From the NCBI GenBank assembly GCA_005798335.1, contig SYJV01000215.1, positions 1-43,352 on the forward strand: DNA of 43,352 nucleotides, given 5' to 3'. The notes under the pieces are model-generated. The model did not search any database. It was not told the origin of the DNA and saw nothing but the letters and a program-made list of their open reading frames with translations. This document shows positions 2,880-37,881 of the stretch, one piece after another (position 1 is the stretch's first letter; every line of letters begins with the position of its first letter). The stretch comes from Planctomycetaceae bacterium (GTDB lineage: Bacteria > Planctomycetota > Planctomycetia > Pirellulales > Pirellulaceae). The translations under genes were made by a program, and so were the position numbers.

Positions 2880-5800
2880 TCAGGTTGAATACGCCATCAG
2901 GCGCGCGAGTTCGGCGACTTGCGGTGGTTGCACCATGCTGTGATGATGGCCCGGTACGAAGTGAACTTGAACCGCATCAGCGATATTGCGCCAGCCACGA
3001 TCCTCGGAAACTTGGACAACAAAGGGAGTATCACTAGGCCGGAACAAGACAATCTTGCCAGGATATTTCTGGATTCGATACTCGCAGGTTAGCGCGACAT
3101 GGTGGTGAAACAACGTTTGCAAATCGTCCAATACCTGCTTGACGACAGCTTCGGGAGTTTCATTGTCGAGCACTCCCAGGTTGCGTGCATGTTGCCACAG
3201 AAAGGGAAGCTGCTCCGATGCATCGAGTTGACTCAGCTCGTCCAATGTCAATTCGATGCCATATTCCAATCCGGCGTTGACTTGTTCGTCGTCGGGGACT
3301 AGATCCGTCGAGCCTTTCGAGATCGTCGAGTCGAGCAGCAGCAATCGCTGCACAACTTCTCCCTGCTGATACAATTGTTGAGCCATCTCAAAGGCAATGA
3401 TTCCGCCCAGCGACCAACCTCCTAGAACGTAGGGTCCACGCGCTTGGCGAGTCCGCACGGCCGCCACGTATTCACTGGCCATTTCTTCCAAAGTGCTTGG
3501 CAGTCGTTCGCGACCGTGCAGTCCGCGCGAACGAATGCCCATCAGCGGCTGGTCGGCCGGCAAATGTTTCGCCAAATCTCGATAACACACCACGATGCCG
3601 CCCGGAGGATGCACTAAGAAAATTGGCGCTAAACTGCCAGTGGGTTTCAGCGGAGACAGCAACGGATGAAATGGATCGTGGGTATCGCGGCGCAAGCGAT
3701 GATGGGGGATGGAGGACGATTCGGTGGATCCGTAGGCAGTGGTTGATTCGAAACCAAAGCGTTCCACCATTTCCGTTTCATATAATTGCACCAACCGCTG
3801 CGCCACTTGCGAAATATCTGCCAGGTCGAATAGAAGGGCCGTCGGTACATGCAATCCAAGAGTTTCGGTAAGCTGAGCAGTCAACATCGCTGCTTGAAGT
3901 GAACTGCCGCCGAGATCGAAAAAGTTTTGATTGACTCCTACTCGATCCATGCCCAACGTAGACTGCCACGCTGCCGCCAAGAACTTCTCCAATGGTGTGT
4001 TTGGTTGGACCAGTTGATCGTCGTCGATGTCAGCTTGGATATCCGGCAAACGATTGCGATCAATTTTGCCACTAGTGGTCATCGGTAGGTTGTCGATACC
4101 CCGAACCGCCACAGGTACTTTGTACGATGGGAAGCGATCCGCCAGAAATGCGCGCATTTGCTGCGAGAGATTTTGCGGTGCAGTTGCTGGATCGTGCAAA
4201 GTCACAAAGGCAACTAATTGCGCCGCTAGTGAGTGAGCGTGAGATACCTTTACGGCCGCAGAGCGCACCAAAGGATGCGATTGCAGCAGCGCTTCTATCT
4301 CGCCAAGTTCAATGCGGTAGCCCCGGAGCTTTACTTGCTGATCCATGCGTCCCATGAACTCAATATTACCGTTGGGCAACCGCCTGCCGCGATCTCCGGT
4401 CAAGTACATTCTCGTCTGCTGAGTGGGATCAAAGCGGTTGACGACGAATCGCTGGTGCGTCATGCCGGGATGGTTGAGATAGCCGCGAGCCAATCCTGGA
4501 CCAACGATTGCCAATTGGCCTGGAACCGTGTCCGGGACTTGTTCAAGCGATTCGTCCAGTATGTAAACAGTCGTATTGGAAATCTCGCGGCCGATGGGTA
4601 TGGGACGGCGTGCGTCCCAATTGCTTACTTTAAAGGCAGTCGTTTCTACGGCAGCCTCCGTAGGCCCGTAAAAATTCCAGAGCTCAGCCCCCGAGACTTT
4701 GTGCAATAGCCCCGGCAAGTCCGATGGCATCGCTTCACCGCCGGTCCAAATTTGCCGCAGCGAACCGCATTGTTTGAATCGGGTATGATTGACCAGCATG
4801 CGCACTAGACTGGGAACTGCGGGCAATATCGTGATCTGGTCTCGCACAATCTGGTCTATCAATCGATCCAAATCATGGCGGGCGGCTGACTCCGCCCAGA
4901 CCAACGATGCACCTTGAGTAAGCGCCGTTAAACATACTCCGATACACGCATCGAATTGATGGGACAACATAACCAAAACGCGATCACTATTGGACAGCGG
5001 TACCGCTTGGCAACGCCATGCCAGCGTATTACAAATTGCTTGATGTTCGATCATCACGCCTTTGGGAGTTCCCGTCGAACCAGATGTGTAGATCACGTAG
5101 GCAAGCTGTGCAAAGTTAGACTTGACTGCCGAATCGAATTTAACGAGCGTCGGTCGAGGTTCCACCAGCATCCGAGTTTCGCACTGCGCATTTTCAACAT
5201 GGATGATGGGGCAGCGCATTTGGCCAACATAGTCCGCCGAATTCGTATCCACGATTGCTGCGCACGGTAGCGCGTCGTTTTCAAGCTGATCGCGCGCAAT
5301 CGCTGGCTGCTGCGTATCGATGGGAACGAACGCCGCGCCACTTTGTAGCGTGGCCAGCACGCCGACCAACATTCTAGCGCCGCGACGACCGCAAACCGGC
5401 ACCAGCTTTTCCGGTCCAGCTCCCAATCCGACCAGTTGCTCTGCCATGGACAACGACGTTTGTCGAAGTTCGTCGTAGGTGATCGAAAAATCATCATCGC
5501 GAAGCGCAATTTGATTTGGATAATGCCGGGCGATTGAATTGAACCAATCTTGAACAGTCGAGTAGCCACATGCGGGTATTCGAGGTTGTGCGAGCGGAGG
5601 CTTTTTGGTCAAGTCCGGGCGGAGCGCGACCGAGTCCGAGCGAAATGCCGGACGCCAAGCGACCTTCGAGATTGGGACTCGCGGTTGATCAAGCAAACTG
5701 GCGAGCAAATCCTGAAAATTCGTCGCGAATACTCGCATAGAATCTTCGCAAAACAACTCCCTGGCGTACACCATCATTCCGCGTAGCGCGTCGGTCAACT

Positions 5801-7109
5801 CGAAAATGAACTCAACATCGTAGTGGCAGGTGCGCTGCGGAACGTAGAAGCTCTCTTGCACAAGTCCACCAAAATTTCGAACTTCGCGCTTGTTGGGAAA
5901 CAAAAATCCAGCCCGACCAGACTCCTCGCGATCTTGCGCTTTTTCGAATGTACATGAAACTTGAAACATCGGACTGCGACTGGGATCGCGAGTTGGCGCA
6001 ATGTCGCGAACGATCTGCGCGAAGGGATAGCTCTGATGCTCGAGCGCGTCCAGCAACGTCTGCCCAAACTTCGAGACCAAAAGCGAAAACGTAGGGTCAT
6101 GTTCCAAGTCTGCTCGCATCGGCAGCATATTGACAAAAAAGCCAACTGTGTGTTCGAACTTTTGATGTCCGCGTCCGGAAAATGGACTGCCGATTAGAAA
6201 CGATTTCTGACCAGAGTATCGAGCCAGCAATACTTGTAGGCCACTATGGATCACGGCAAAAGGAGTCGCCTGATGCGCCGCGGCGAACTGTACGATACGG
6301 GACGCAATTGCGTCGGGAAAGTCAAGCGGTACCACGTTCGCTTGGCCGGAGAAATTTGCTGGTCGTGCGAAATCCGAGGGCAATTCCAATACGGTCGGCA
6401 CTCCTTCCAAAATCTCACGCCACTTTTTCTGCAGTGATTCACGGTGCGGGCTCTGCAATAGTTGCTCTTGCTCGCGGACAAACTCAGCATAGTTACCCGG
6501 CGCCGTAGGCAACGGCGGAGTGTTTCCGGCAGCGAAACTGGGATAGGCTGCCTGCAACTCACGCAGCAACAATATCAACGACCAGAAATCAACTACGATA
6601 TGATGTGTGGTTGCCAAGACAACGTAATCGTCGCTGCTCAACTTGTATACGCGAATACGCAGCAACGGTCCGTTCTCAAGATCGAACGGGCGCTGCGATT
6701 CGCGCTGAATTCGCTCTTGAATACGGGCCATTTCCCAACTGGCAGCATCTTCGACAATGAACTCCGGCGGCAGTCGAGCATGGACCCGTTGACGCAGTTG
6801 CGCTGCCGAATCAGAAAACGTGGTGCGCAGGCATGGATGGCGCTCCACCAGAAATTCGATCGCGCGCCGTAAGGCATGGACGTCTAGAGGCGATCGAATG
6901 CGCGTTGGCAAGAACACATTGAACGGCGTAAATGAAGGATCTCGGCGATACGCGTACCAAAGTCCCTGCTGGCCTGCCGACAACGGAAACTCACTTTCCT
7001 CTTCCAAACGCTGCTGCAACAACTTCTTCAGCAACTCCCGTTGCTGTTGCAGCGACAATTGCGACAAACTGGTTTCGATGTGTTTGATTTCAGCGCCCTG
7101 TGGTAACAT
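2880..7109 (-). CDS. Non-ribosomal peptide synthetase, C-A-PCP-TE termination module
   Basis: This 1409-residue protein is one complete NRPS module with release domain. Residues 1-37 form a charged helix likely to dock on the PKS. The condensation domain spans about 40-470 with the active site HHIVVDFWS (His169, His170, Asp174); Phe replaces the usual Gly after Asp, as is often seen in C domains that take polyketide donors. The adenylation domain spans about 515-1025: YTSGSTGTPKG (673-683), GPTEAA, YLTGDRGRR and the catalytic Lys1015 in TTSGKIDRNRL. The carrier domain has DLGGSS with Ser1070 as the phosphopantetheine site. The thioesterase (about 1160-1405) has GWSLGG (Ser1233) and a C-terminal GHHHS His. 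By hand alignment to GrsA the A-domain specificity residues read D-A-G-P-W-G-F-V-E-K, which I cannot assign to an amino acid. It overlaps the PKS gene by 20 bases and is surely co-translated with it. Confidence 0.95.
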   Translation of the reverse strand: MLPQGAEIKHIETSLSQLSLQQQRELLKKLLQQRLEEESEFPLSAGQQGLWYAYRRDPSFTPFNVFLPTRIRSPLDVHALRRAIEFLVERHPCLRTTFSDSAAQLRQRVHARLPPEFIVEDAASWEMARIQERIQRESQRPFDLENGPLLRIRVYKLSSDDYVVLATTHHIVVDFWSLILLLRELQAAYPSFAAGNTPPLPTAPGNYAEFVREQEQLLQSPHRESLQKKWREILEGVPTVLELPSDFARPANFSGQANVVPLDFPDAIASRIVQFAAAHQATPFAVIHSGLQVLLARYSGQKSFLIGSPFSGRGHQKFEHTVGFFVNMLPMRADLEHDPTFSLLVSKFGQTLLDALEHQSYPFAQIVRDIAPTRDPSRSPMFQVSCTFEKAQDREESGRAGFLFPNKREVRNFGGLVQESFYVPQRTCHYDVEFIFELTDALRGMMVYARELFCEDSMRVFATNFQDLLASLLDQPRVPISKVAWRPAFRSDSVALRPDLTKKPPLAQPRIPACGYSTVQDWFNSIARHYPNQIALRDDDFSITYDELRQTSLSMAEQLVGLGAGPEKLVPVCGRRGARMLVGVLATLQSGAAFVPIDTQQPAIARDQLENDALPCAAIVDTNSADYVGQMRCPIIHVENAQCETRMLVEPRPTLVKFDSAVKSNFAQLAYVIYTSGSTGTPKGVMIEHQAICNTLAWRCQAVPLSNSDRVLVMLSHQFDACIGVCLTALTQGASLVWAESAARHDLDRLIDQIVRDQITILPAVPSLVRMLVNHTRFKQCGSLRQIWTGGEAMPSDLPGLLHKVSGAELWNFYGPTEAAVETTAFKVSNWDARRPIPIGREISNTTVYILDESLEQVPDTVPGQLAIVGPGLARGYLNHPGMTHQRFVVNRFDPTQQTRMYLTGDRGRRLPNGNIEFMGRMDQQVKLRGYRIELGEIEALLQSHPLVRSAAVKVSHAHSLAAQLVAFVTLHDPATAPQNLSQQMRAFLADRFPSYKVPVAVRGIDNLPMTTSGKIDRNRLPDIQADIDDDQLVQPNTPLEKFLAAAWQSTLGMDRVGVNQNFFDLGGSSLQAAMLTAQLTETLGLHVPTALLFDLADISQVAQRLVQLYETEMVERFGFESTTAYGSTESSSIPHHRLRRDTHDPFHPLLSPLKPTGSLAPIFLVHPPGGIVVCYRDLAKHLPADQPLMGIRSRGLHGRERLPSTLEEMASEYVAAVRTRQARGPYVLGGWSLGGIIAFEMAQQLYQQGEVVQRLLLLDSTISKGSTDLVPDDEQVNAGLEYGIELTLDELSQLDASEQLPFLWQHARNLGVLDNETPEAVVKQVLDDLQTLFHHHVALTCEYRIQKYPGKIVLFRPSDTPFVVQVSEDRGWRNIADAVQVHFVPGHHHSMVQPPQVAELARLMAYST

Positions 7110-10100
7110 TTTCGCGCATCATTTGAGCCAGTAGTTCGCTAACTTGTTGGTCCGGCAAACTGGATAATTGATCAAGTAGAGCACCCGCTTGCAGACCTGT
7201 GATTGGCGAATCTATCGGCACGTCCGAGGTACCCTCATCTTTATCGACGTGCGAATTCTCCCCTGCGCAGGAATCTAGCATGCCGCAAAGTGTATCGGAA
7301 AGGGAACTGAGGCTGGCACCGCGCATCAGCGCCGAGATTTGCAGGTTGGTACCGAACTGGCTCTCGATCCAATTTCGCATTTCGACGGCCATCAGCGAAT
7401 CGAGCCCCAATTCCAACAAGGATACGCTGGCGTCGATTTCACTGGCCGGAATTCCCAACAGCGACGATGATTTGCCGCGCAACAAGCGATCCACCAGTCC
7501 AGATCGATCTGACAACGAGGTCGAGCGCAGTTGATCTACTGATACATGTTGCAAGTCTTCAGCGATCGTCCCAGGATTCTTGTTCCGCAGTAAATGAGCA
7601 AATCGATTCGAAACTCGATCAGTGACTCCCAAACCGCGCCAGATCGACCAATCCATGCGCAGTACGCTAAGCTGCCTGGCTTGAGTTTGCATGGCATACT
7701 CCAAGCAGTCGGTCGCCTGACGTACCGTGAAACTCAGCACCCCTTGTCTCTGCAATCGTTCACCCAGTTGTTGGCGCTCTGCCAAGTAACCAACTTCGCC
7801 GAGATGCCCCCAGTTCACCACCAGCGCCGGCAATGCCTGGTTGCGTCGGTAGTGAGCCAATCCATCCAGCATCGCATTCGCAGCCGAATAATTGGCTTGT
7901 CCGGCATGTCCAAAGATGCTCGACAGGGACGAGAACAACACGAAATGGTCCAGTTCTCTGCCCAAGGTCTCGCGATGCAGATTCCAGCCACCAAGAACCT
8001 TGGGTCTGAGCACACGATCGAGAGTTTCGCGGTCAAGATCGATCAGCAACCGGTCCTCAAGCACCATCGCGGTATGAAATATGCCACGCAGTGGCGGTAA
8101 GTTGGCATCGATCCAGTTCAGCACGAATCGCACATCTTCCGCCGATGAAATGTCGGCCGGAAAGGCGGTCACGCGAGCACCGAGTTTGGCGAGTTCATCC
8201 AACAGAGTTTGGCCACTGGGCGCGATCGATTTGCTACGACCGCTCAGTACCAGATGCCGCGCACCGTGTTCGACCATCCAGCGGGCGATCTCCATGCCAA
8301 AGCCACCCAAGCCGCCAGCGATCCAATAGGTAGCTTGTGAATTAAAAGCAATCGGCAAATAAGAACCAGGAAAGACATCGGTCGGTCGATCGACGAACTC
8401 GACCACGACCTTGCCGATGTGTTTGCCTTGTTGCATAAACCGGAACGCGGCATTGGTGTCCTTGGCGGAATACTTGGTGATCGGTAGAGGGTGCAGGGTT
8501 CCTTGATCAAACAAATTCACCAGTTCGCGCAACATGTGTCCCATCCGGTCGGGCTGTTGCTTGAACAGTTGATCGAGATCGATGGCAAAGAAAGCCAAAT
8601 TATTGCGGAATGGAAATAGGCCCAAGGCCGCGTCGCCATAAATGTCGCGCTTGCCAATTTCCAAGAACCGTCCGCCAAGGGATAGTAGTTCAATCCCCTT
8701 TTGAATCGCCTCGCCCGCGAGCGAATTAAGAACTACGTCGACGCCTGCCCGATGTTTCGAGCGCACTTCATCCACGAAATTCAAACTGCGCGAGTCCATA
8801 CACTTGCTGACACCGAGCTGCTCCACGTAGCTGCGTTTCTCGTCGCTGCCCGCAGTCGCCAGGATCTTCGCACCGGCCAGTTGAGCCAACTGAATGGCCG
8901 CCAGGCCAACGCCTCCACTGGCTGAATGTACGAGCACCGATTCTCCGCGCCGAATTCTTGCACAGTCGTGCAATGCATACTGCGCGGTCAAGAATGCAAT
9001 CGGAATACCGGCGGCCTGCGCATGCGTCAGCGCGCGAGGTTTGCGAGCGACTAATGCGGCGTCGACCGTCACATGACTCGCGAACGCACCTGGAGCAACC
9101 GCGATAACTTCATCGCCAATGCGCCACTTTTCAACCGAACTGCCCAAGCGACTGATGCGCCCTGAACACTCTGCCCCTAACAGCACTTGCCCATCCGGCA
9201 ATCCTGGGTAGAGATCGAGAGACTTCATCACGTCGCTAAAATTCAAACCAGTACAGATGACTTCGATTTCGATTTCATTGGGTTTGAGCGGTAACCGCGG
9301 TTTAGTGCGAAATTGCAATTCCTCGATCGATGCAGTACGGCCCATTTGCAATTGAAACGGCAATCTACCCGCCGCGTCCGCCGTAACTCGCTGTTCGGCT
9401 TGTGGCATGAATCTTTGAGCAAATCGCTTGCCTCCGCGCCATTTGATTTCGTCTTCGTCGTTAGACACCGTGACTTCGGCAACTAGATTGGCGATAGCTT
9501 CGTCGTCGACCACCACTGGAAGATCGATCAATCGAGTTCGCAGGCGAGCGAATTCGCTGACTACGACGCGCCCAAAGCCTATCAATGGAGTCTGTGCGAT
9601 CGACATAGCCGGACAGGAAATATCATCGGTCTGGCCGCCCGATGTAATGATCATCATATCCGCCCGACCTAATTCTGCATTACGGTCCCAAGCTTGCACC
9701 AAGTTCAGTGGAGCCAACGTAGTCAGAAGCGTACTATCACGCAGCGCTTCGGTCGAAATAGTTGGAGGCGCAGGAACATCCAAAGCCCAACAGTACAGCA
9801 ACTTGATTTTCCGGCCGCGGAACTGAGATTGGCAGTGGCGTAGGAACGTATCGAAATCCTCGGGCGACTGGCCGTCGATTTCGAATTCATGCTCGGTTAG
9901 GCGGCGAAAGCCGTTGCCGCGTCGAGCTACCACGAATTCATGCGACTGTTTGCCTAGTTGCGAAATCGTCCGCTTGGCGACATTGCCGTTGTCTCCGAGA
10001 ACAATCCACAAATTACTCTGGTCGATCGACGCGCTGTTTTCGGGATTCAGCTCGCTCGATATCCATTCGTAGTTAAAGACGAGGTCCTGAACAGTTTCGG

Positions 10101-13100
10101 GTGTCTTGCCACTGGTTACTCGCTGGCTTTGAAAGCCGCGAACCTGCAAGCACAATTTCCCAGCGTCATCGTAAATATCTAAGTCAGCGACCATACGTCG
10201 GCGCGTCTTGCTGATCAGTTTGGTATGTACGGTAACGCGGCGCGATGGCGAAGAAAGATAACGAATCTCTTCAATTTCGATCGGTAAGTACAATCCGCTC
10301 AACGTGTGATCAAAATCGGCATCCGCGACGATCATCGAGTGAAAGCAGCCGTCTAAGAGCGCCGGATGAAAACAATAGTCTCGTGATTGGTCCGCCAAGA
10401 ATGGCGGTAATGCGACTTGGACGATGGCTTCCCCATCCCGCCGCGATCCCGCGAGTAAGTTCTTAAACCTCGGCCCATACTCCAGTCCTAGTGCGGCACA
10501 ATAATCGTAGCATCGATTGCCATCAACGCTCTCGGAGCACATGGCCAGATGGTCGGCAAGCGTAGCCGTCGTGCGAGTTGGTGGATCGCCAGCCTTGGAA
10601 ACTCCGACGGTTGCTAGCGAAGTCCACATTTGCCCGTCCGACTCGCGGCTAGCAATTTCCAAGGAACGGCGGTCCGGACGAAAAACGGTTTCCAGCCACT
10701 GCGCACGATTGTCCGTCAGTATGCAAGGATTATGTAATTGCAATCGATTGAGCGTAATCGGCATATGCGGTGTCAAACGCTGCGCGGCCGCCAATCCGAC
10801 TTCAATCAGTGCGGCAGCGGGCAAAACACATTGACCTCGTACACGATGATCTTCCAGGTAGTCTTGCCCGCGCAGTTCGATTCTTCCATGCCAACGGGGA
10901 GTATTTGCGTGCTCGGATTCTCCTAATAGAGGATGGTAATCGGTTTCTAGTCTCGCCAGCTTGGATTCACGTGATTCGGTCCACAAAGATAAAGTTTGAA
11001 ATGGGTAGGTCGGCAGCGGGACCGGGCGTACAGGTTTTGCGTAGAGATTGGACCATTCGATGTCGAAGCCTAGTGAATAAAGCCTGCCCAAGCTGTTGAG
11101 CATTGTTGTAAAATCGTCCTGCTCGCGATGCAACGAGGCGAACGAGCGTACGCTCTTGCGCGATGTTTGGAAACACTCGGTGATGGAATAGGTCAACACC
11201 GGATGCGGTCCTAACTCAACGAGCACACCGAATCCTTGGTTGGCAAGTTCCCCTATGACTTCTGCAAAACGTACCGGTTGGCGAACATTGTCCCACCAAT
11301 ATCGAGCGTTTAACTGATGGCCTTCGATTTCTCGACCATAAACGGTTGAAAACAGTCGCGTGTGAGTTGCGCGTGGAGACAAATTGGCCAGCAGTCGCAA
11401 CAATGGTTCGCATACCGGTTCCATTTGTGGACTATGAAAAGCGTATTCGACCGCCAACCGTTTGCAGAAAATGTCCTCGTTCTCTAGTCGTTTAGCCAGT
11501 TTGTCGATGGCATTTTGGGTACCCGAGATGGTTAACGACGACGGCCCGTTGATGGCTGCGACTGAAACTTCTCGGTCGATCCCGTCAAGCCATTTGCCGA
11601 TCTCGCGTTCGGGCAAACCCACCGCCAACATGCGACCCTGCGACGACGCAAGGTCCATGCAATGGCCTCGAAAGAAGGCAACTTGGCATGCTTCTTCCCA
11701 GGCTAATGCGCCCGATAGATAAGCGGCAGCGATTTCGCCAACACTGTGGCCAACCAACGCAGTGGGAACGATTCCCCAACTTTTCCAGACTGCTGCTAGT
11801 GCAGTTTGGATAGCAAAAATACTTGGTTGTGCAATGGAGGTTTGTTGCATGCGCGAAGTAGTTTGATCACGGTTCAGTTCGGCGACCAACGACCAATCGC
11901 CATAACGCCGAAACTCGCGATCACACTGTTCGATAACTTGTCGAAAAACCGGGCAGTGTTGCAGCAACTGTCGACCCATTGCCCACCACTGTGGTCCTTG
12001 GCCTGAACAAACAAAGGCAATGCCACTGGAGAGTTGGGACGCAGTATTTTCGCGAGACGGTTGCTTTTCTGCATCTGTTTCGTGACCTGCTAAACCATTC
12101 AGCAAGTCCGTGACGTCTTTACCGCACACCGCCGCGCGGTATTCCAAGTGTCCGCGGCGATGAGCGGCGAATGACGCTAGCTCTTCGACAGAAAACTGTG
12201 CCCCGTGCGATTGCAGCCAACCGATCATTCGCTGTTGGACAGCGTTTAGCGACTGTCTGCTGCGAGCCGATAGCGGTAACAAACAAGGTACTATGTTACC
12301 TTCAACGCGGCTGTTGGAAACCGCGTAGCGGACAGGTGAAGTGGAGCTATATACAACCGCGGTCGCGGCATCAATTGGAGCATCTTGCAAAATTACATGT
12401 GCATTTGCCCCGCCATAGCCGAAACCGTTGATACCGGCCAAGCGAACTCCGTTGATCGCCTGCCAGTTCTCCAGTGCTTGAGGCACGCGTAGCTTGAGTC
12501 GATCGAAATCGATCGCCGGATTCGGTTCTTGCAAATGCAGATGGCTGGGAATCTGCTGATGATAGAGCGATAGAGCCACTTTAATCAAACTAGCGATCCC
12601 CGCACCGGCTTCGAGGTGCCCGATGTTGGTCTTGACCGACCCAATGATACATGGTCGCTGTGGATCGCGGGCTTCGCCAAGAACTGTACCCAATGCGTTG
12701 GCCTCGATTGGATCGCCGACCGGCGTTCCGGTGCCATGCGCTTCAATATATTGAATATCGGCAGGGCGAATACCTGCTCGCTGACAGGCAACACGCAGCA
12801 GAGCTTCTTGCGCAACTTGGCTGGGTACCGTCAGGCCGGGCGTACGTCCATCCTGATTCGTTGCCGTCGAACGAATTACTGCATACACTCGATCTTGATC
12901 TCGCACAGCCGCTGAAAGTGGCTTGAGCAATACCATTCCCGCACCCTCGCCACGCACGTAACCGTTAGCGCGCGAGTCGAACGTCTTGCAGCGACCGTCT
13001 GGTGAAAGTACTCCAAGTTGGCTGAAGGCAACATAGAAATCGGGCATCAACAAAGCGTTGACGCCGCCTGCCAACGCCAGTGTACAATCCCCGCGCCAGA

Positions 13101-27409: not shown

Positions 27410-27872
27410 AGTGTTTATTCGCGGATAAACGGATTGAAAGCGACTAGTGACACCAGCTACGCCCGACGTGCCAGCGCGAATTTGCTCGATCATGCCGTGA
27501 CTCGCCAGCCATCAAAGGCCAAACGATCGTTACAGTCGAGCGTCGGCCATCGCTTCCGCGAATGCTTGTGCATGAATTTGGACGGTATTTTGCCACAATC
27601 GCATGAGTTCGGCGAGCTCTGACCGGCTTTTCGACCTAGGTTTCAGGGAACATTCTCGCTGGGAGTCAATGCGTGAGTACGTTCACGTAGTGTGAGTTAC
27701 GGCAGATTAACTGCACCAAACAAAGCCTTCGATCACCCCCTCAAGCTTGGCCCCGCGAACCTGAAGTGGCTTCCGCGCGTTCCAAAGCTGATCGAGCGCT
27801 TTGCGTTGAATCGGCAACTTGGTCCAACGAGGAAGTAAGTCCTCGATCAAAACACTAGAATGGGCTGTTGTA
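27410..27872. other. Non-coding stretch, likely left margin of the genomic island
   Basis: No gene is supported in these 463 bases. The part near 27410 should hold the promoter of the peptidase operon. To the right of it the sequence passes from core genes to the degraded defence genes, so the island boundary probably lies here. I looked for a copy of the tRNA-Arg 3' end, which would mark it, and did not see one. Confidence 0.5.
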
Positions 27873-28327: not shown

Positions 28328-28987
28328 GTGAAAGGGAAATTTTTGAGCGATTCTCAATCACACTCGCCGGTGTTGCTGTTCCATTATCCGTCCTCACAGT
28401 CGGCGGGATTTGATTACTTGAAGCGAAGTGTCAAATTGCAATTTGGCTCGTTAACAGACCAACAGCCCGTAGGCCAGCATCCGATCCGCCCCTGGATCGC
28501 TGAAGAATTGCCACAAGCCTTCAGCGATTGGAAGTGCGAAGTGGTGGCGTTAGAGCTTGCACGCAGCTTCCGGGAGAAGGTCACAATTCTGCACGCAGAA
28601 TTTCACCGTCCAGTTACCAGTTCTACACCCGATCGATTCTCCCGTCACTACGCCGATGCCGCGGCGCTTGCGACTCATCCGATTGCCAGCCTGGCAATTA
28701 ACCAAAACGCATTGCGGGACCGCGTTGTCGACTGGAAAAGCCGGTTCTTTGGCAGTACATGGGCGAGTTACGCAACAGCGAAACCAGGCACGTTTCGTTT
28801 GGTGCCACCTGAGAGTCGGCAAGATGCATTGAGGCGTGACAATCAGGCAATGCAGATCATGTACCTGTCAAAGGCTCCATCGTTTGACGTCATAATTGAG
28901 GCACTTGCGGAATTGGAAGCGTGGAGAGGCAATCCTCTATTTAGTCAACTGGAAGATCTATTTTTAAAAATCCAACCTGAGGAATAG
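28328..28987 (+). pseudogene. AbiEii/AbiGii-type nucleotidyltransferase toxin, N-terminus missing
   Basis: The 219-residue frame opens at a GTG and matches only the second half of AbiEii-type toxins: VKLQFGSLTDQQPVGQHPIRPWI, then the family stretch ELARSFREKVTILHAEFHRP, RFSRHYADAAALA, and a C-terminal helical part ending ALAELEAWRG. Full-length members have about 100-130 further residues before this point, containing the GG-T-L-S and S-D-D catalytic acids that bind the nucleotide. None of these is found in the preceding 120 bases in any forward frame I checked, so the enzyme cannot be active. The remaining frame is undamaged, which suggests a fairly recent truncation. Confidence 0.78.
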
Positions 28988-29095: not shown

Positions 29096-29245
29096 ATGAC
29101 CGTTGCACAGGTTCCTCAAGAGAAATCTCAAGACCGTCTGCCGCGGCATTCATTGAAAGTTCAGTCGGAGATTGGTTACCATCAAGCTGTGGCCCGCCAC
29201 CAGGCCAATCGCAGTTCTTCACTCGTCTTCAAACCCGAAATCTGA
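29096..29245 (+). CDS. Small 49-residue ORF with a strong ribosome binding site
   Basis: An ATG at 29096 preceded by AAAAGGAGG with optimal spacing opens a 49-codon frame (MTVAQVPQEKSQDRLPRHSL and so on, ending SSLVFKPEI). The protein is basic and polar with no membrane segment. Its last 27 bases overlap the 3' end of the DUF1156-DUF499 gene on the other strand. The ribosome binding site is the best in this part of the window, which argues for a real gene, but it could be the leftover 5' end of a gene cut off by the insertion of the defence genes. Confidence 0.45.
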   Translation: MTVAQVPQEKSQDRLPRHSLKVQSEIGYHQAVARHQANRSSSLVFKPEI

Positions 29246-31794
29246 GAACTTCAACGTCCGGCAGTTCTCTGTCACATCACGAACGAGTTTGTCACTGGCA
29301 CCGTCCGGGAGCCGAACTTGGATTTCGAGAGTGATCTCGACTTCTGCCCCAACCAATCCGCTCAGGTGTTGGATCACCTCCTCTGCGATCCGCGATGCGT
29401 CGCGACCCATGCGGAGCGGGTCTAAACGAGTAGAACCGTGGAATCGAGTCAACTTGGGAACTGCCGGATGCGTTTTCCCTTGTCCGGTTTTTTGCAAAGG
29501 CACGGCTAACGCGCTGGTTGGAGAAGAGCCTACGGCGTTACTTGACACGAATGTCGCAGTGCCTGGCTCGCTGCTGATTTGATCTACCGAAGCAGTGGCG
29601 ACTTCCTGGTCATTCGCAATCTGGGAGGCAGCCGCTTCGGGTTTCACAAGGAGCGATTTGTTGTCAACAACGACACGAATCGACGTTCCAAATTTCAGAC
29701 CCTGGTAACGACCTCGGGCTTCGTCCCAACTTTCGGCATAAGCGAATCCTTCGTCCTGCCAGATAAGGCTGGAAACACCATCCTGGATGGCGGCGATCAA
29801 GACCTGCTCGTCGCGGAGTCGCGGCAGGTACAGGTAACGTGCCATGTACTCGCAAAGCTGTTTGATGCTGACATGGTTTCCGGTCCATAGCGGGATGCGG
29901 TCCAATTCCGTCCGCAGTCGAACGGCCCCCATCTGGACCAGCAAAGACTCTTCGTTTTTGAGCTTCTTTGCCGCCCGGGTTGCAAGACTGTCATGCCCCT
30001 GGAGCTTCAGGTCGGTCCAGTCCAGGTCACCCTTCGGATCGGGCTGGCCGGGAACGAGCAGCCATTGATACGCCTCGGCAATACGCAAATCGACGGCCTC
30101 GTTGGCACTTTTCCTCTTGGTTTCCGCCTGACGAGATTGGAACTGGTCGAGGTTCAAAGTGACCTTGTCGTCCCAGATGGTGGACCATGCCAGAAACTGG
30201 CGGACCGCCTGCTCCAGTTCGCGAAGACGGTTCGCATCACCTGCCAGGAAGACCAGCGTGTTCTTGTAGTTTCGCGGCGACGATCCTCGCGAATCGAGGA
30301 TGGATGCCGCTTCGCGGCGCGCTAGGCTGTTGGGGTCCTTATTGGAATGCGGGAACTCCGGCGAGAGGATGACGAGTCGGACTTCTTTCTCGTCCGGTAC
30401 GTCGCTGCTTTGCACGCAGGCATGAACCTTTGAGAAATCAGCCCTTGTCCGAGCTTCTTCTCGGAGCCGTTTGACGATCTCGTCGGTCACCTGGTCATCG
30501 GAAAGCTCACCGGCCCGGTCGTCTGCCAGTCGGGCAAACGTCGGCTGTGTCGAATACCAGTAGCGTTTACCATCAACATAGAGATAGGTCGCGCTGTCCG
30601 TGAGACGCCGTAAGGCATCGCCGAAGGTCGCGACCGACTCACCGGGCTGGACGCAACCGAGTTTGACCTGCCGTTCGTCGATCCCTCGGTATGCGGCTCG
30701 CAGAGTCACTCGCTGACTGTGCTTGTCTGTTACGGGTTTGACATACGCTCGATTTGAAGTTCGCGACGAAAGATTGAACGAGCAGATTAGCGGTGTTATC
30801 GCACCGCACGCCGGGTTAGGGCATTTGACGGTTCTGGCCCAGAGCCAGGCGATGACGGTGAGTTGCTGTCCGACGTAGGGGAGCAAGTCGGGGCGGTCTT
30901 GGGCCATCTCGGCGGTGACTTCGACCTTGGGATACAGGTGGCCGATCCGCTTCTCAGCTTCGTCGCGCATCCACTGCCCGTAGTACCGCACGTCCTCTGC
31001 TAGCCCCTGCGCTCCCGTCCACGTCGCCGTCTTGAGCTTCCCCTTCCGCGACTCCGGATTGACCGGCGGGCGGCCGGCGAACTTCGGTGGAATCTCGATG
31101 AGCGCTTTGTTGATCAGCACCGGTACCGGATTCAAGTCGCTGGCATACGCCCGCAACCCCAGCCGCTGAGCTTCCAAGGGAATTGAGCCGCCTCCAGCAA
31201 ACGGATCAAGCACCGGCGGCGCATACTCGGCCAAGAATGCTTGACCACTTCAGCAGGTGGCAAACGACTGACATCAAACGAGAATCGCACTCGTCCAACT
31301 TTCTTGCCAGGTCCCAGCGATTGTGAACGACTATGGCATCGCGTGACCAAATCCCAAGCCGTCCAAGGTCGCTTCGCATTTTCGTTCGTCAGTTTTGAAA
31401 TCTCGGATTGTTTGCTCAGTTTCCCTGTCTCGATCAGCCGCGAGGCCACGCAGCGCGCGATCTCGGCACGTGCTGTCCGAATCACCTGTGGATTGTTGGA
31501 ATTCTCCCACATCACCAATTCTTCGATGAGGTTGCATAACTCAGCCCGTTTGAGTCCGGCGGCTTCTTCATCGACCGATCCGTCCAACTTTCGATATTGC
31601 GGATCGCTGTCCGGGTCATCCACTAGTGACGCGAACGATACAGCTCTACAAGCTGCCAACGGACGCCGTGCCCACCACAGATGCAAAGTACTGGGATGTC
31701 CATGCCGAATGGACTTCTCCCGCGCCGACTCCGCATTGATGGCTGCAAGCGGCAACGCGACTTCAATCAGTTTCTTGCGATAAGTTTCTGTCAT
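29219..31794 (-). pseudogene. DUF1156 DNA methylase frameshifted and deletion-fused to the C-terminal half of a DUF499 ATPase
   Basis: Bases 31794 to about 31240 encode the DUF1156 start: [20 protein letters not shown], then [20 protein letters not shown]. Around 31237-31240 the frame slips by one; the next frame resumes with [20 protein letters not shown], the SAM-binding motif DPFAGGG. Intact relatives would read through, so one base is probably missing. The methylase sequence continues to about AYVKPV and then, near 30,700-30,730, turns without interruption into the C-terminal part of a DUF499 protein (KLGCVQPGESVATFGDAL, ATYLYVDGKRYWYSTQPT, RNTLVFLAG, ending VTENCRTL). The methylase catalytic DPPY region and the DUF499 Walker motifs are both gone. 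The 5' ATG overlaps the nuclease stop (ATGA). Confidence 0.85.
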
Positions 31795-32981
31795 CGGTTC
31801 CCGCTTGTTTTCCGTTTGGTTTTCGGCGCCTGCCGCCGCATGTCAGCCTTGTGATCGTTACTGTCCCCGGCCGCTTCTGCGGCGGCCATCGCGTAGAACT
31901 CGTGCAGTTTCGACTGCAACAGTTTCTTATCTGGCAGAGCAGTCTGATACTGGGCAACGAGCGCCGGGGAAGCAGACCGGCTCAGTGCGTACTTGACGAC
32001 TTCGTGATCCTGCGTCGCACACAGCAGCACTCCGATGGAGGGTTGCTCGTGCGGCTTCTTCACATCTCGGTCGAGGGCTTCCAGAGTGAATTCGAGCTTG
32101 CCGAGGTACTCAGGCTCAAACTCGCCGATCTTTAGTTCGAAGACCACCAGGCAGTTTAGTTGCCGGTTGAAGAACAGCAGATCGAGAAAGAAGTCGCGGT
32201 TGCCAACTTGAATCTGGTATTCGCTGCCGACAAAGCAGAAATCGCAGCCAAGTTCGATGAGGAACTCCTTGAGATGCTCGACCAGCCCGCTGTGCAGATC
32301 GGCTTCCGAATGCCCGACGGAAAGCTGCAGGAACTCGACAAGGTAAGTGTCGCGGAAGATGGTGGCCGCTACTGGATGAATTTCTCTCACCACTGGTGAG
32401 AGATTTGGCGGCGAGAGCACGACCCGCTCGAACAGGGCGCTATTGATCTGCCGTTGAAGGTCTCTCTTTCCCCACTTCTCGCGGATTGCAGCGCGGAGAT
32501 AGAACTCGCGTTCTTCGTCTCGCTTGCATCCACTCAGAATGGCCAGATTGTGAGTCCAGCTTAAATCTCTCACCAGTGGTGAGAGATTTGGTTTGTTTCG
32601 ATAAGTCTCGTAAAACTGCCGCATTCGCCACAGATTCTGGGCCGAAAACCCTCGTGGATCCGGGCGTCGCAGGCGGACATATTCGGCGAGTTGCTCGACG
32701 GTTCCCTTGCCCCAGCCATCGGCTTCAATCTTCCGAACGATGAATTCGCCGATGCTCCAGTAAAGGTCGATCAGCACCGTGTTGACCGCTGCGACGGCTA
32801 GCGTTCGGGCGGAATCGATCAGGCCCAGCACTGCATCGAAATCCGCCTGAGGCTCGGATGCGACGGACAAGGCGCGAATCAATCCGACGGACGGTCTCGC
32901 CTTCTTCTTCGCGGCAGGCCGTTTCGAGTTCATGGCCTCCTTTGGCGCGGATTTCTTCTTTGGTGCTGACTTCTTTTTCAT
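31791..32981 (-). CDS. PDDEXK nuclease of the DUF1016/YhcG family
   Basis: 396 residues with a Lys-rich N-terminal tail (1-30), an N-terminal DUF1016 domain (about 45-190: [28 protein letters not shown]) and a C-terminal PD-(D/E)xK nuclease domain (about 205-370) with Asp267 in DFFLDLLFF and Glu282-x-Lys284 in [13 protein letters not shown]1016 proteins are Holliday-junction-resolvase-like nucleases common in restriction and defence loci. The gene appears complete. Its ATG overlaps the helicase stop and its stop overlaps the DUF1156 start, both as ATGA, so it was built into one translationally coupled operon with them. Two DNA palindromes inside the gene encode NLSPLVRD and NLSPVVRE. Confidence 0.92.
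32380..32406. repeat. In-gene palindrome copy 2 (encodes NLSPVVRE)
   Basis: Ten-base arms TCTCTCACCA and TGGTGAGAGA flank a single central base. It is nearly the same as the palindrome at 32563, about 182 bases away, and is read in the same frame of the nuclease gene. Confidence 0.8.
32563..32589. repeat. In-gene palindrome copy 1 (encodes NLSPLVRD)
   Basis: A perfect 27-bp palindrome with 13-base arms (AAATCTCTCACCA and its complement) and one central base, lying inside the YhcG-family gene. Confidence 0.85.
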
Positions 32982-34707
32982 GCGGGCTCCCCGGAATGAG
33001 CCAGCAGGCTACTTATACTGTAATTGACGCTGGTTGCCTTGAAGTCCGGTTCCTGGTCGAAGGGACTACGGAGGTACCGCACCTCGAATTGATCTGGATC
33101 AAGCAGAACAATGGCAAGGATGAATTCGTCCGGCTTGTTGAGTCCAGTGAGAATCTCGTTCTTCGTGATTGTGACGGTGTCTGCTCCGCGAACGCGGCCC
33201 TTGACCTCAAGGAATCGCAGCAGTCCGGTGTCGGGAATGGATGACTCGATGTCGTAGCCGAGTTTTTGTTCGCTCACGTCTTTCGGCTTGAATCCGAGAC
33301 GACGTTCCGTCTCCATAACAGCTTCCATCGCCCTTCGCTCTGACTCTTCCGTGCTGAGCGCAAAGGTCGGCGGGGCGGAGGCGGCCTTACCCTGCGCCTT
33401 CCGAAGCATGCCAATCGGGACGATCATGGCCCCGCCGAACACAACCGGAGGAAGCGGAGAGAGCTTGCGTTCCTGGTCGAGTTCGGCCAACCGCTTCTGC
33501 AATCGGCCTGTGAGTTCGTCTGCGCGTTCCCTCGCCTTGCCCGAATTGAGCTTGGCATTGACCTTGCCGGCAAGTTCTTGGTCTTTCAGTGTTGCGGACC
33601 GGTGATCCCAGAAATTGATCTCCTTAGTCAGCCGTTCTTTAACGGCAGCCTTGGTCTTGTCGATCAGTTCTTCCTTCCGGGCACGGACTTCCTGCAAGTG
33701 TTCGGGGACAAGGTGGACGGCCGCGTGTTCCTGTGCCTGGGTTTCGAGATTGCCACGAAGCCAGTCCGGGGAAACCTGCGCTCTGCTCGCCTCTGATTCG
33801 TCCGCTGTCGGCGGACGGTAATCCAGATATGGAGCCGGTCCTGCATTGCGGGTATTTCCTGACTCGTCCACTTCCACGAACTGGAGCCGTTTTGAGACGA
33901 CCCGACGATTGCCGTTGCGGTCAATGCGGGCGTCTTGAATTGAGTGTTCCAGGAACAATAAGGCCCTCGGCTTGTTGCCATCGTCAGTCTCGTCAATCAG
34001 CACGGCTCCGCGCTTGAGCAGATCGCGGTGTCGCTCGATGACGAGATCGAGCGTCGCATCCAGCAAGGGGTGGCCGGGACAGACGAACGCAGCCATTGCC
34101 TTGCCCGGAAGGTTGATGAGGTCCTTGTGGAAGGTGATGCGTTCGTATCGTGGCAGGACCGGCGATCCGCGCCCGATCTCGCGATCGCGGTTGCGAATGA
34201 CCGCCGGAACATGCTTGACCTCATAGCGATTGGATTCGCGTTCGTGGATCGTACCCCCGAGCAGCTTGAAGGCCTCGATGAAGAAGGATGCAATAAAATG
34301 CGGTTGGAGCCTGCGGGCCTCGGCCCGTTCCATCTCTTCACGGATTTCGCGGACACGACTGACATCCATTGAATCGTGTGTCAGCGCCCTGCCTTCGATG
34401 AGTTCTTTCAGGTGACTTCGTTCGGCTGCGTTTTTGTCCACAACGCGGAAGAGTTCCGCCTTGCGTTCGGGACTGTCCCCATAGCGAATCGCCTCGATCA
34501 TCAACTGTCGCAGCGGTCGATCATCGAATGTGAGTTGCCCTAGCACGTCAAACACCTGGCCGCCAAGTGCCGACCTGGCTTCTTCCAGCTTCTCCAGCAG
34601 CCGGTGATAGACCTCGCCTTCGCGCGTGTCACGGGCCACGAGATTCCATAGATGGCAGACTTCGGTCTGGCCGATACGGTGAATTCGGCCGAACCGTTGC
34701 TCGAATG
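32978..34707 (-). pseudogene. Snf2-type helicase with DUF3883 tail, 5' end deleted
   Basis: The remaining frame (about 575 codons) starts in the middle of helicase motif VI: EQRFGRIHRIGQTEVCHLWNLVA. The rest of lobe 2 and the linker follow, then a coiled-coil-rich stretch (HLVPEHLQEVRARKEELIDK), and a C-terminal DUF3883 domain (LGYDIESSI, LRFLEVKGR, FILAIVLLD). This is the tail of a DrmD-like Snf2 helicase. Motifs I to V, with the ATP-binding lysine and DEAH box, are absent. Upstream of about 34,704 the frame stays open only by chance, running antisense through the ParB-like gene, where no helicase similarity remains. Its stop overlaps the nuclease start (ATGA). Confidence 0.85.
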
Positions 34708-35147
34708 ACGACGTGGCAAAGGCGTTGCACATCAGCAAAGCCTCGGTGACGCAGTGCTTGTCGTTGTTGAAGCTCGAAGCTGACGTACAGCAAGAGTTAA
34801 ATGACGGCAGAATTGCGGCCAGCACGGCCTACGCGATTGCCCGTGCATCGGAAGAGCAAACTAAACAGAAGTTGCTCGAAGCGGCTCGCAATGGGCAGTT
34901 ATCACGCGACGATGCTTCCGAAGCAGTCCGCAAGCGAGCACCAGGCGGCGGGAAAGCCTGCAAGATCGCCTGCCGGCTTCCGGGCAAGCTGGTCACGACT
35001 ACCTGCCAAGGACGGTTGACGTTGCAGGATATCGAAGGGATCTGTCAGCAGTTGTTGCGTGAGAGCCGCCGTGCCATCAAGCAAGGTTTGGATGTTTCCA
35101 CATTTGAGCGAGTCCTTGCAGATTTGAGCCGTCAAGCGAGCGTTTAG
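34707..35147 (+). pseudogene. ParB/KorB-like DNA-binding protein, N-terminus missing
   Basis: About 145 codons beginning at the helix-turn-helix core of a ParB-type protein: DVAKALHISKASVTQCLSLL, KLEADVQQELNDGRIAASTA, YAIARASEE, then a C-terminal domain ending FERVLADLSRQASV. The ParB CTPase/nuclease domain that normally precedes the helix-turn-helix is missing, because the sequence before 34,707 belongs to the opposite-strand helicase. A GTG at 34713 could start a 144-residue product, but without a visible ribosome binding site. Such genes are found near integrases in planctomycete mobile elements, in line with this position. Confidence 0.75.
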
Positions 35148-35922: not shown

Positions 35923-36950
35923 TCATTCGCCGATAGCTTTCTTCGCCTGAGCCCGCATATGCTCTGGATTGTGAGCAAGGTGTTGGTAGACTCGCGACAA
36001 AGTGCTGGGATCGTTATGCCCCATCAATATCGCAACCGTCAGCGCATCGACACCCGATTGTAGAGCTCGCGTTGCCCACGAATGCCGCAGCGCGTAGAGG
36101 GAATACCTGGTCGCATACTTGGATGCGATGGCATTGCCGACTTTAACCCGCAGAGATTGGTTGACGGGAATCGTGCCATCCGGCAGTTTGATTTGGTAGT
36201 TGACCATTTGCTTCAGATCGAGTCCCTGCCGTTGCATTTCGGCCTTACCCATCCGAGCGCGGAGCCGGTCGACAGCACAATTGACCGATACCGTTGTCCA
36301 TGCTTTGCCCCGAGTGTTCCTGAACAGTTTTCCTTCGGGAAACTGTGCCACCAGCTTGCGGGTGACGTCTAACGCAAAAGCCGTCAGGTACACGATCCTT
36401 GGTCTTTTCTTTCCTTTGGCTTCGCTAACAGGCATTACCCAACGAGCATTGCGCTCATCGAAATGACGTGCTTCGACCCGCAGAATTTCTTGGGGTCGAC
36501 AACCAGATTCAAAGGTAACGCGACAAAGTTGGAGAAAGGTCTCGTCACGAATATACGAGCTGAGCACCGCAAACTCGTCTGCAGAAATACATATTTCGCG
36601 ACTCTCGGCACCTGGGACAGCCATGTCCGCAATCGGATCGTCTGGCGTGTAGCCAAGCTGTCTGGCCCATTTGGTACACCGTTTGACCGAACGTAGTTGC
36701 GACGCGACGTCTTTGAAAGATCAGGATAGGAATCGACCCATTCTTGTACGTGAAAGGGCCGGATCTGATCTGCCGGCAGGTCTGCATACCGTTGGCAGAA
36801 GCGTTCTAGTCGGTAGCGATACCATTCGAACGTATCGGGTGCCCGATTGGATTTGACCCAATCCAGAAACGAGTCCGCGATGGCCGCAAACGATTTGGAT
36901 GAAACTTTGGCGGCATTTGGGGATCGCATGAGTTCGTAGTAGCGTTTCAT
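35923..36950 (-). pseudogene. Tyrosine recombinase (integrase), frameshifted
   Basis: Two frames together make one integrase. The N-terminal, SAM-like DNA-binding domain is read from the ATG at 36950 (FLDWVKSNRAPDTFEWYRYR, ending near SKTSRRNYVRS). Near 36,685-36,690 the frame is lost; homology resumes in another frame with KRCTKWARQLGY and the catalytic domain: Arg in GCRPQEI, LYALRHSWATRA (Tyr in place of the first His of HxxR), MGHNDPSTL and the nucleophile Tyr in SRVYQHL. The slip fits the loss of one or four bases. Upstream of 36950 similarity continues (KPWYRKDRNAWFVTIGG) for 40 codons to an in-frame stop at 37071 without any normal start codon, so the 5' end is damaged too. Confidence 0.85.
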
Positions 36951-37210
36951 GGCGGCTTTCTTGTCGCCACCTAGGTTGTGTCGAACTCCCCCAATTGTGA
37001 CGAACCACGCGTTGCGATCTTTACGGTACCAGGGTTTTGGCTGGCGAGATATCTTGGACTTCCTTCGGCGTTAGAGACACGAAATTAACGTGCAAGCCTG
37101 AGGATGCGATGAAAGCAGTTAAGCAGGCTGCCTAACTACCTAACGCGAGAAAGGGTTCGATTGTGTACCGAATTCAGTACCCGACCATTTTGGAATCGAC
37201 GTAAGTCTAA

Positions 37211-37284
37211 TACACCCGGCAGGATTCGAACCTGCAACCCTCGGTTCCGAAGACCGATGCGCTGTCCAGTTGCGCCACGGGTGC
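37211..37284 (-). tRNA. tRNA-Arg (anticodon UCG)
   Basis: A full cloverleaf on the minus strand starting GCACCCG at 37284. D arm GCGC-AACTGGACA-GCGC, anticodon stem TCGGT/ACCGA with loop CTTCGGA (anticodon TCG), and T arm GCAGG-TTCGAAT-CCTGC. The acceptor closes with CGGGTGT, so the first pair is G-U rather than G-C. CCA is not encoded. Its 3' end faces the integrase gene, the usual arrangement when the tRNA is the attachment site of an element. Confidence 0.93.
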
Positions 37285-37881
37285 TTGCTTGTTTCTTGTG
37301 CAGAATATCCAATTTCCGCCTACGTTGGGTTGCTTTCTCCGCAGTGTTTAGAATCTATTGCTCGCCACGGCTCTAGAATCAGGTTATGTTCACTGGTTTC
37401 GCTCAACCTCACTGTGCGGGTTTGGTAGCCTTGAGGCTGTTCATTGTGGGTTGGTTTTCCAAACATTCAATCAAAACAATTTAACAGCCAAGCTGTGAAC
37501 TGACAATATCCTCAATGTGTATTCTGATTGCTTATAACGAGTGTGTTGATGGTTGGAAGACGATAACGCAACGAGACTGGAAATACTTGCGTTCTTGTTG
37601 CTGGACGAATTGCTGGCTTACTCAGCAGTCCAGGAGTATTGCGATTCTTGCGAATGACAGACCATGTGAAGTGCATCTCAAGTGCCGACCCGCTTGTCGA
37701 TAATCGCAGTGCGAGGCCTGCGGCTAGTTCCAGTCGCTTTGGTTACTATAGAGATGCCATCGAGTACGATCAGCACGAGTATGGAAATTGCCGTCGAATT
37801 CGACTTCGACATTTTTATGCGCTGGCTCGTTTGTACCTGCGTCCGTCTTCAATGCTTGCCCACTAGTGGACTTATTCGCAA
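37285..37881. other. Non-coding stretch between tRNA-Arg and the cytochrome gene
   Basis: No gene is supported in these 597 bases. Two short open frames (about 62 and 75 codons) overlap here, but both lack a ribosome binding site and protein-like composition. The promoters of the tRNA and of the DUF1549/1553 gene should lie here; I see no clear boxes. Confidence 0.6.

Follow-up and report, generated by a model that had tools for sequence, protein, structure and literature searches.

The open frame at positions 29219-31234 of the window, the whole stretch of 43,352 nucleotides of planctomycete DNA that was analysed, is very probably the scar of a single deletion of about 3.8 kb through the hmaB and hmaC genes of an Hma operon. 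It stands in a locus of the known Hma kind that has decayed, and because the rest of the system there is broken too, it is most likely a recent wreck rather than a new working protein. In the course of events proposed here, one deletion of about this length would have begun within hmaB and ended within hmaC in an anti-phage operon of the Hma (Type-1 BREX-related) system, keeping the reading frame by chance, and the operon itself would probably have been carried on an element integrated beside a tRNA-Arg gene. The closest intact cluster found, in an Acidobacteriota MAG (L021; HmaA 79%, HmaC 75% and the mid part of HmaB 71% identical), serves as reference, and further intact clusters come from planctomycete genomes related at the level of family, order, class or phylum. 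The features, from high to low coordinates, are:

37211-37284, minus strand: tRNA-Arg(tcg), adjoining the integrase (ARAGORN)
35923-36950, minus strand: tyrosine recombinase in two frames, N part 36435-36950 and C part 35923-36624 (Pfam)
34713-35147, plus strand: ParB-like gene without a start (Pfam HTH_ParB, E 6.9e-08)
34702-34741, strand not assigned: second junction, truncated hmaA against the truncated ParB-like gene (ends of homology)
32978-34711, minus strand: C-terminal half of HmaA (SNF2 helicase), residues ~573-1148 (79% identity to L021; PADLOC)
31791-32981, minus strand: DUF1016/YhcG-like PD-(D/E)XK nuclease gene, apparently intact (Pfam DUF1016_N and YhcG_C; PDC-S02)
31132-31794, minus strand: 5' part of hmaB with the DUF1156 domain, in a separate frame (Pfam DUF1156, E 3.3e-27; tblastn in two frames)
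30706-31243, minus strand: HmaB (DUF1156-family adenine methylase), residues ~167-348 of 993 in L021 numbering (tblastn, PADLOC, motif scan)
30697-30713, minus strand: in-frame deletion junction hmaB'/hmaC' (where HmaB and HmaC homology end)
29219-30706, minus strand: HmaC (DUF499 ATPase), residues ~629-1116 of 1116 (75% identity to L021; PADLOC)
28328-28987, plus strand: remnant of an AbiEii nucleotidyltransferase toxin, profile positions 82-237 of 238 (Pfam, E 4.6e-13)

The order on the minus strand is HmaA', the DUF1016 nuclease gene, HmaB' and HmaC' (PADLOC, tblastn); the helicase, DUF1156 methylase and DUF499 ATPase genes lie in one operon, on one strand and in Hma / Type-1 BR order, and their pieces carry the PADLOC labels HmaA, HmaB and HmaC.

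The fusion frame is free of stops over all of its 671 codons, as the preliminary description had said, and both of its parts are assigned by PADLOC profiles: positions 140-323 of the HmaB profile match fusion residues 6-182 (E 5e-83), and positions 454-940 of the HmaC profile match residues 178-669 (E 3.5e-123), a join of two families that is far beyond chance. Alignment to intact relatives has residues 1 to about 175 following HmaB (71% identical to residues 167-348 in L021) and residues ~177-671 following HmaC 629-1116 (75% identical), the C-terminal 44% of the DUF499 ATPase. With the L021 proteins, tblastn ends the HmaB match at 30710 and begins the HmaC match at 30706 (30712 in another run); for L114 the HmaB match stops at 30713, and for two other relatives it extends loosely beyond the join, to 30680 and 30653. 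By blastn against HmaC genes of viral contigs the match begins at 30700 or 30697. The alignment to intact clusters, planctomycete ones included, that had been called for thus places the breakpoint at ~30,697-30,713, overlapping the 30,700-30,730 first proposed. When two coding frames are joined by deletion, one case in three should stay free of stops.

In L021, where hmaB occupies 5120-8101 and hmaC 8117-11467, the lost stretch measures 3,837 bases and contains the DPPY motif of HmaB (residue 592) together with GGGKT (249) and LILIDE (358) of HmaC; the GGGKT is a loose P-loop, the strict P-loop pattern having matched none. This bears out the earlier proposal that a single large deletion took the catalytic end of the methylase and the motor of the ATPase. 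To the parts then listed as removed can be added the Swt1-like HEPN domain, found by Pfam at HmaC 11-123 in L021 and also within the lost stretch. What is left of HmaB retains motif I, DPFAGGG, and part of the sequence that follows, with the DPPY motif IV absent from the motif scan, and the HmaC remnant, beginning at residue ~629, is without HEPN, P-loop-like and Walker B-like motifs. The window has neither an HmaB that unites DUF1156, motif I and DPPY in a single frame nor the AAA+ ATPase core of HmaC (P-loop, Walker B). The spacing of the two parts elsewhere agrees with the deletion. In 81 other loci, some counted twice (e.g. L093 and L115), the HmaB and HmaC parts lie on the same strand and in the same order, 1,817-8,733 bases apart (median 3,927). 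The minimum comes from L045, which is a deletion fusion too, and the value after it is 3,380; the parts are thus at least 3,380 bases apart in 80 of the 81 loci and touch here.

Upstream of the join hmaB is broken a second time. It switches frame between about 31,345 and 31,237 (tblastn in two frames), and DUF1156 with the first ~157-180 HmaB residues is read in the ORF at 31132-31794, in another frame than the fusion. The frame had been described as a DUF1156 methylase fused to a DUF499 ATPase; methylase and DUF499 sequence are indeed joined in frame, but the DUF1156 domain itself stands outside it. With hmaB switching frame ahead of the join, the 671 codons do not begin at a gene start: the TTG that opens them, at 31234, is mid-hmaB. 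Intact copies of hmaB are present in relatives. Translation from the hmaB start would yield at most the 220-residue DUF1156 ORF, and a consensus scan of 31100-31400, with a consensus not suited to all bacteria, found no promoter-like site.

Residue drift was assessed over four segments, each with 57-83 aligned sequences including the window, leaving out sequences below 38% identity or 85% coverage and counting as near-invariant the positions at which 95% of the others are alike. None of the 228 such residues tested had changed (HmaA C-terminal half 0/98, DUF1156 0/26, HmaB mid part 0/46, HmaC C-terminal part 0/58), which is likewise so in a good number of intact relatives, among which the window ranks 41st of 57, 17th of 76, 30th of 77 and 50th of 83. 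As there is no residue drift, decay is shown by the lesions only, and the sequences are consistent with damage that is recent, or partly assembly error, or with pieces that are still constrained. The fusion was modelled with AlphaFold from an alignment of 40 rows. In the model the HmaB part, residues 1-180, has a mean pLDDT of 49, almost all residues from 174 to 231, in the region of the join, are below 50, and residues 231-430 of the HmaC part have block values of 71-96, with some later blocks low again; Foldseek against the PDB gave no match for this model at E <= 0.001. The same part of intact HmaB reaches a mean of 67, in a poor control of 18 sequences with an overall mean pLDDT of 61.9. 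The models thus mildly favour two unrelated pieces over one integrated protein, an argument that is weak because the control is shallow and poor.

These observations bear on the reading in which the DUF499 C-terminal half is still made, with the methylase piece as its N-terminus, and binds DNA or partners, for example as a dominant-negative brake. The stop-free, in-frame join, the near-invariant sites without drift, the predicted fold of much of the HmaC part and the in-frame joins in other broken Hma loci (below) would all suit such a protein. However, the frame break leaves it without a gene start, the scan offers it no promoter-like site, it holds half of a methylase core, lacking DPPY, hmaA is damaged too, and the join occurs in no other genome examined; a working chimera is accordingly judged very improbable. 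The preliminary description had left the choice between a simple wreck and a new chimeric protein, and the wreck is favoured over the chimera by the broken frame of hmaB, by an hmaA without its core and by a join unshared in the genomes examined.

The preliminary description had also considered that other genomes might carry the same fusion as a conserved gene; this was searched for and not found in the genomes examined. A single match spanning both parts occurred only in the genome of origin, both in a set of 98 genomes (21 with a match) and in one of 392 (24 with a match; threshold 1e-40, best three candidates per genome scored), two sets that overlap and both include that genome. A few HmaB matches in the 98-genome set also extend beyond residue 177 (for example 6-194 in G021, 77-204 in G045 and 127-238 in G092), and there the HmaC part is separate. 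The join was not seen among the best 80 of 446 relatives, nor among 40 listed of 89 matching plasmid records, nor in phages, five of which match on the HmaB side only. In a viral collection the join query matched two loci, on the HmaC side only, and an HmaB query matched six, five of them unbroken where covered and the sixth (L168) holding the start of HmaB only; of the five, L167 is without the HEPN part and L165 is cut by the contig end.

Several matches that run across the join (from query residue 136, 142 or 147 to 670-671) looked like shared fusions and were rejected; they are taken to be alignments that extend into HmaC sequence of weak similarity. Among the loci concerned of at least 6 kb, the deletion survey described below finds no large join except L045; L050 and L090 were too short for it, L090 having normal spacing and L050 showing the HmaC part only. 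A match to residues 106-665 on Rhodobacter plasmid H8 was rejected as a fusion, the DUF1156 and DUF499 genes being separate, and so was that of L029, which has separate full genes. No new conserved HmaB-HmaC fusion family, with the same join and conserved residues in other genomes, appeared in the searches made, and such a family was rejected on the grounds that no second copy of the join exists in them and that two other hmaB-hmaC joins break elsewhere.

Those two joins belong to broken Hma operons of a similar kind. In Nostoc flagelliforme FACHB-838 (L045), HmaB 5-286 is followed by a frame change, HmaB 294-483 and then HmaC 221-1116, the last two sharing an open frame of 1081 residues. On plasmid pRlX4 of Rhizobium johnstonii TP60 (L161), whose record is of a complete sequence, hmaB changes frame ahead of a join of HmaB ~826 to HmaC ~719 that is annotated as one hypothetical gene; HmaA has an internal gap there (391/600), which rests on one 32-residue match. 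Both resemble the window in having an hmaB frame break and then an in-frame HmaB-HmaC join, yet L045 keeps the whole of HmaA and the GGGKT of HmaC, whereas in L161 the DPPY motif survives and part of HmaA is missing. A Candidatus Tectomicrobia locus (L098) is alike in its large in-frame deletions within an Hma operon, which differ in joining HmaA 126 to HmaB 89 and, within HmaC, 153 to 1056. The HmaB/HmaC join points are 348/629 in the window, 483/221 in L045 and roughly 826/719 in L161, and since the breakpoints differ between loci, the deletions are independent. The fusion frames of L045 and L161 are also what might be expected of a natural subtype of Hma that carries a short fusion of methylase and ATPase, but each of the three hmaB genes is frame-broken upstream, and the subtype is largely refuted because the join points differ in all three loci and a family would share its join; it is hardly credible.

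The deletion survey covered 86 loci, the window included, and listed jumps of more than 80 residues, L161 coming from the plasmid search outside it. All five large deletion joins outside the window (L045, L161 and L098) are in frame, against one third predicted for plain decay; by chance this has a probability of 1/243 if the joins are independent, a figure that is post hoc, comes from three loci and sets five smaller jumps aside. These five, of 110-175 residues (L055 and L087 out of frame, L074 and two in L094 in frame), were read as natural length variation and not as deletions, a choice made after seeing them; one falls within a divergent HmaB and the other four at the boundary between hmaB and hmaC, where in two cases the HmaC match starts past the HEPN domain. 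The in-frame excess is a lead only. Three independent hmaB-hmaC joins, with all five large joins outside the window in frame, raise the hypothesis that such joins are a recurrent and selected first step rather than random wreckage, in which one in-frame event would take away the catalytic end of the methylase with part of the ATPase and make a harmless stub, perhaps a dominant-negative subunit, which would disarm a system that otherwise poisons the cell on losing methylation, the frame breaks coming later; little credence is given to it here.

The damage extends beyond hmaB and hmaC. Residues 1-572 of HmaA are lost at the second junction, at ~34,711, and with them the SNF2 helicase core, which is absent from the window; only residues ~573-1148 are kept (79% identity), and positions 598-1170 of the PADLOC HmaA profile match the remnant (E 6e-219). 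On the other side of this junction the HTH_ParB profile starts at position 26 of 102, in a gene on the opposite strand from hmaA. The AbiEii toxin-like gene at 28328-28987 has neither a start nor its N-terminal third by Pfam profile coverage. The recombinase is split between two ORFs, one matching Phage_integrase (E 5.8e-12) and the other Phage_int_SAM_1 (E 8.7e-4, slightly below the cut-off at 20 vs 22.3 bits); standing frame-broken next to the tRNA-Arg it probably marks the edge of an integrated element, for which the tRNA beside the integrase is the likely insertion site. The tRNA region (37151-37300) has no exact repeat of at least 12 bases elsewhere in the window. An exact repeat of 14 bases, with copies at 27598-27611 and 36923-36936, sits close to the two ends of the island, its second copy inside the integrase gene, and may be due to chance. 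For a comparison with an empty site the flanking genes have diverged too far within the genus, the best peptidase match being 61% and the PSD1/PSCyt gene belonging to a large family.

It is unlikely, though less so than a working chimera, that reads were wrongly joined or collapsed in assembly and that the operon of the organism is intact or differently arranged. The assembly is fragmented, with 558 contigs, several kinds of lesion fall within one 9-kb stretch, and none of the four segments shows residue drift, all of which would fit an artefact. Against it, the missing HmaB and HmaA parts were found on no other contig of a genome that is 97.5% complete, both halves of the fusion stand in natural order and strand and match L021 at 71-75%, and a like lesion exists on the L161 plasmid, whose sequence is recorded as complete. 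Searches of the same genome with L021 HmaB found only the two stretches in the window, those with HmaA 1-572 only distant helicases (25-36% identical), and those with HmaC 1-626 nothing beyond a stop-containing fragment on another contig, 40% identical. That the missing parts lie elsewhere in the genome, mis-binned or in a split operon, was rejected, these searches having found no close copy. The HmaC-like fragment (G000:C193:1159-2253) is a DUF499-like ATPase fragment with an internal stop, 40% identical to HmaC 166-545.

The apparently intact DUF1016 nuclease, encoded between hmaA and hmaB, may act alone. Its gene contains TCTCTCACCASTGGTGAGAGA, a palindrome with a one-base centre, twice (32383-32403 and 32566-32586, 183 bases apart), and at up to two mismatches these are the only copies in the genome. 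Among eight relatives, two (L172 and L179) have palindromes at a spacing of 183-184 bases with matching changes on both arms (CTCGCACC..GGTGCGAG; GTCTCACC..GGTGAGAC), L174 has a similar palindrome (CTCGCACC..GGTGCGAG), L177 has unrelated ones, and four (L173, L175, L176 and L178) have no palindrome with at least nine perfect pairs. The in-gene pair is possibly conserved; among the papers listed by a literature search, nothing bore on DUF1016 with palindromes.

On the favoured reading, of a deletion through hmaB and hmaC accompanied by other lesions, the damage is recent on an evolutionary scale. To judge from the encoded proteins, the operon would no longer defend its host, because the methylase is without DPPY, the ATPase without HEPN, P-loop-like and Walker B-like motifs, and the helicase without its motor. 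As a single locus, a planctomycete Hma operon that broke recently is of little weight. It illustrates that Hma operons can die by hmaB-hmaC deletions that leave a long open frame, for which automatic annotation can then report a gene without a complete ATPase or methylase, as in the hypothetical protein of L161, and counts of defence systems from single markers could be inflated by such remnants.

Payne is reportedly the first author of the NAR paper of 2021 on Hma. That paper (PMC8565338) names Hma for helicase, methylase and ATPase and has HmaB as an m5C methylase, whereas PADLOC-DB and PMC12839542 have it as an adenine methylase. Public genomes hold 1,638 Hma instances according to PMC8565338, and PMC12839542 counts 2,446 taxa. 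In 2026 the system was recast, in PMC12839542, as a Type-1 DUF499-centred BREX-related (BR) system, whose members are a DUF499 ATPase, in many cases with an N-terminal HEPN domain, a DUF1156 N6-methylase and a Swi2/Snf2 helicase; the same paper proposes a model of self-DNA methylation, an ATPase scanning complex and restriction by helicase and nuclease, reports further nucleases, PD-(D/E)XK among them, near some Type-1 BR loci, and assigns wHTH and RRM-like domains to the C-terminal half of the DUF499 family. Word searches of the open PMC literature found no description of such hmaB-hmaC fusions, which does not prove their absence. Compared with Hma as given in PMC8565338, the window has the same three genes in the same order, and the PADLOC Hma profiles match all of the pieces, but each of the three is cut short or has a broken frame, a deletion has joined hmaB to hmaC, and a DUF1016 nuclease gene stands between hmaA and hmaB. 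With Type-1 BR systems, as PMC12839542 describes them, it shares the set of DUF499, DUF1156 and helicase genes, from which the HEPN domain, the ATPase motifs and the methylase motif IV have been deleted.
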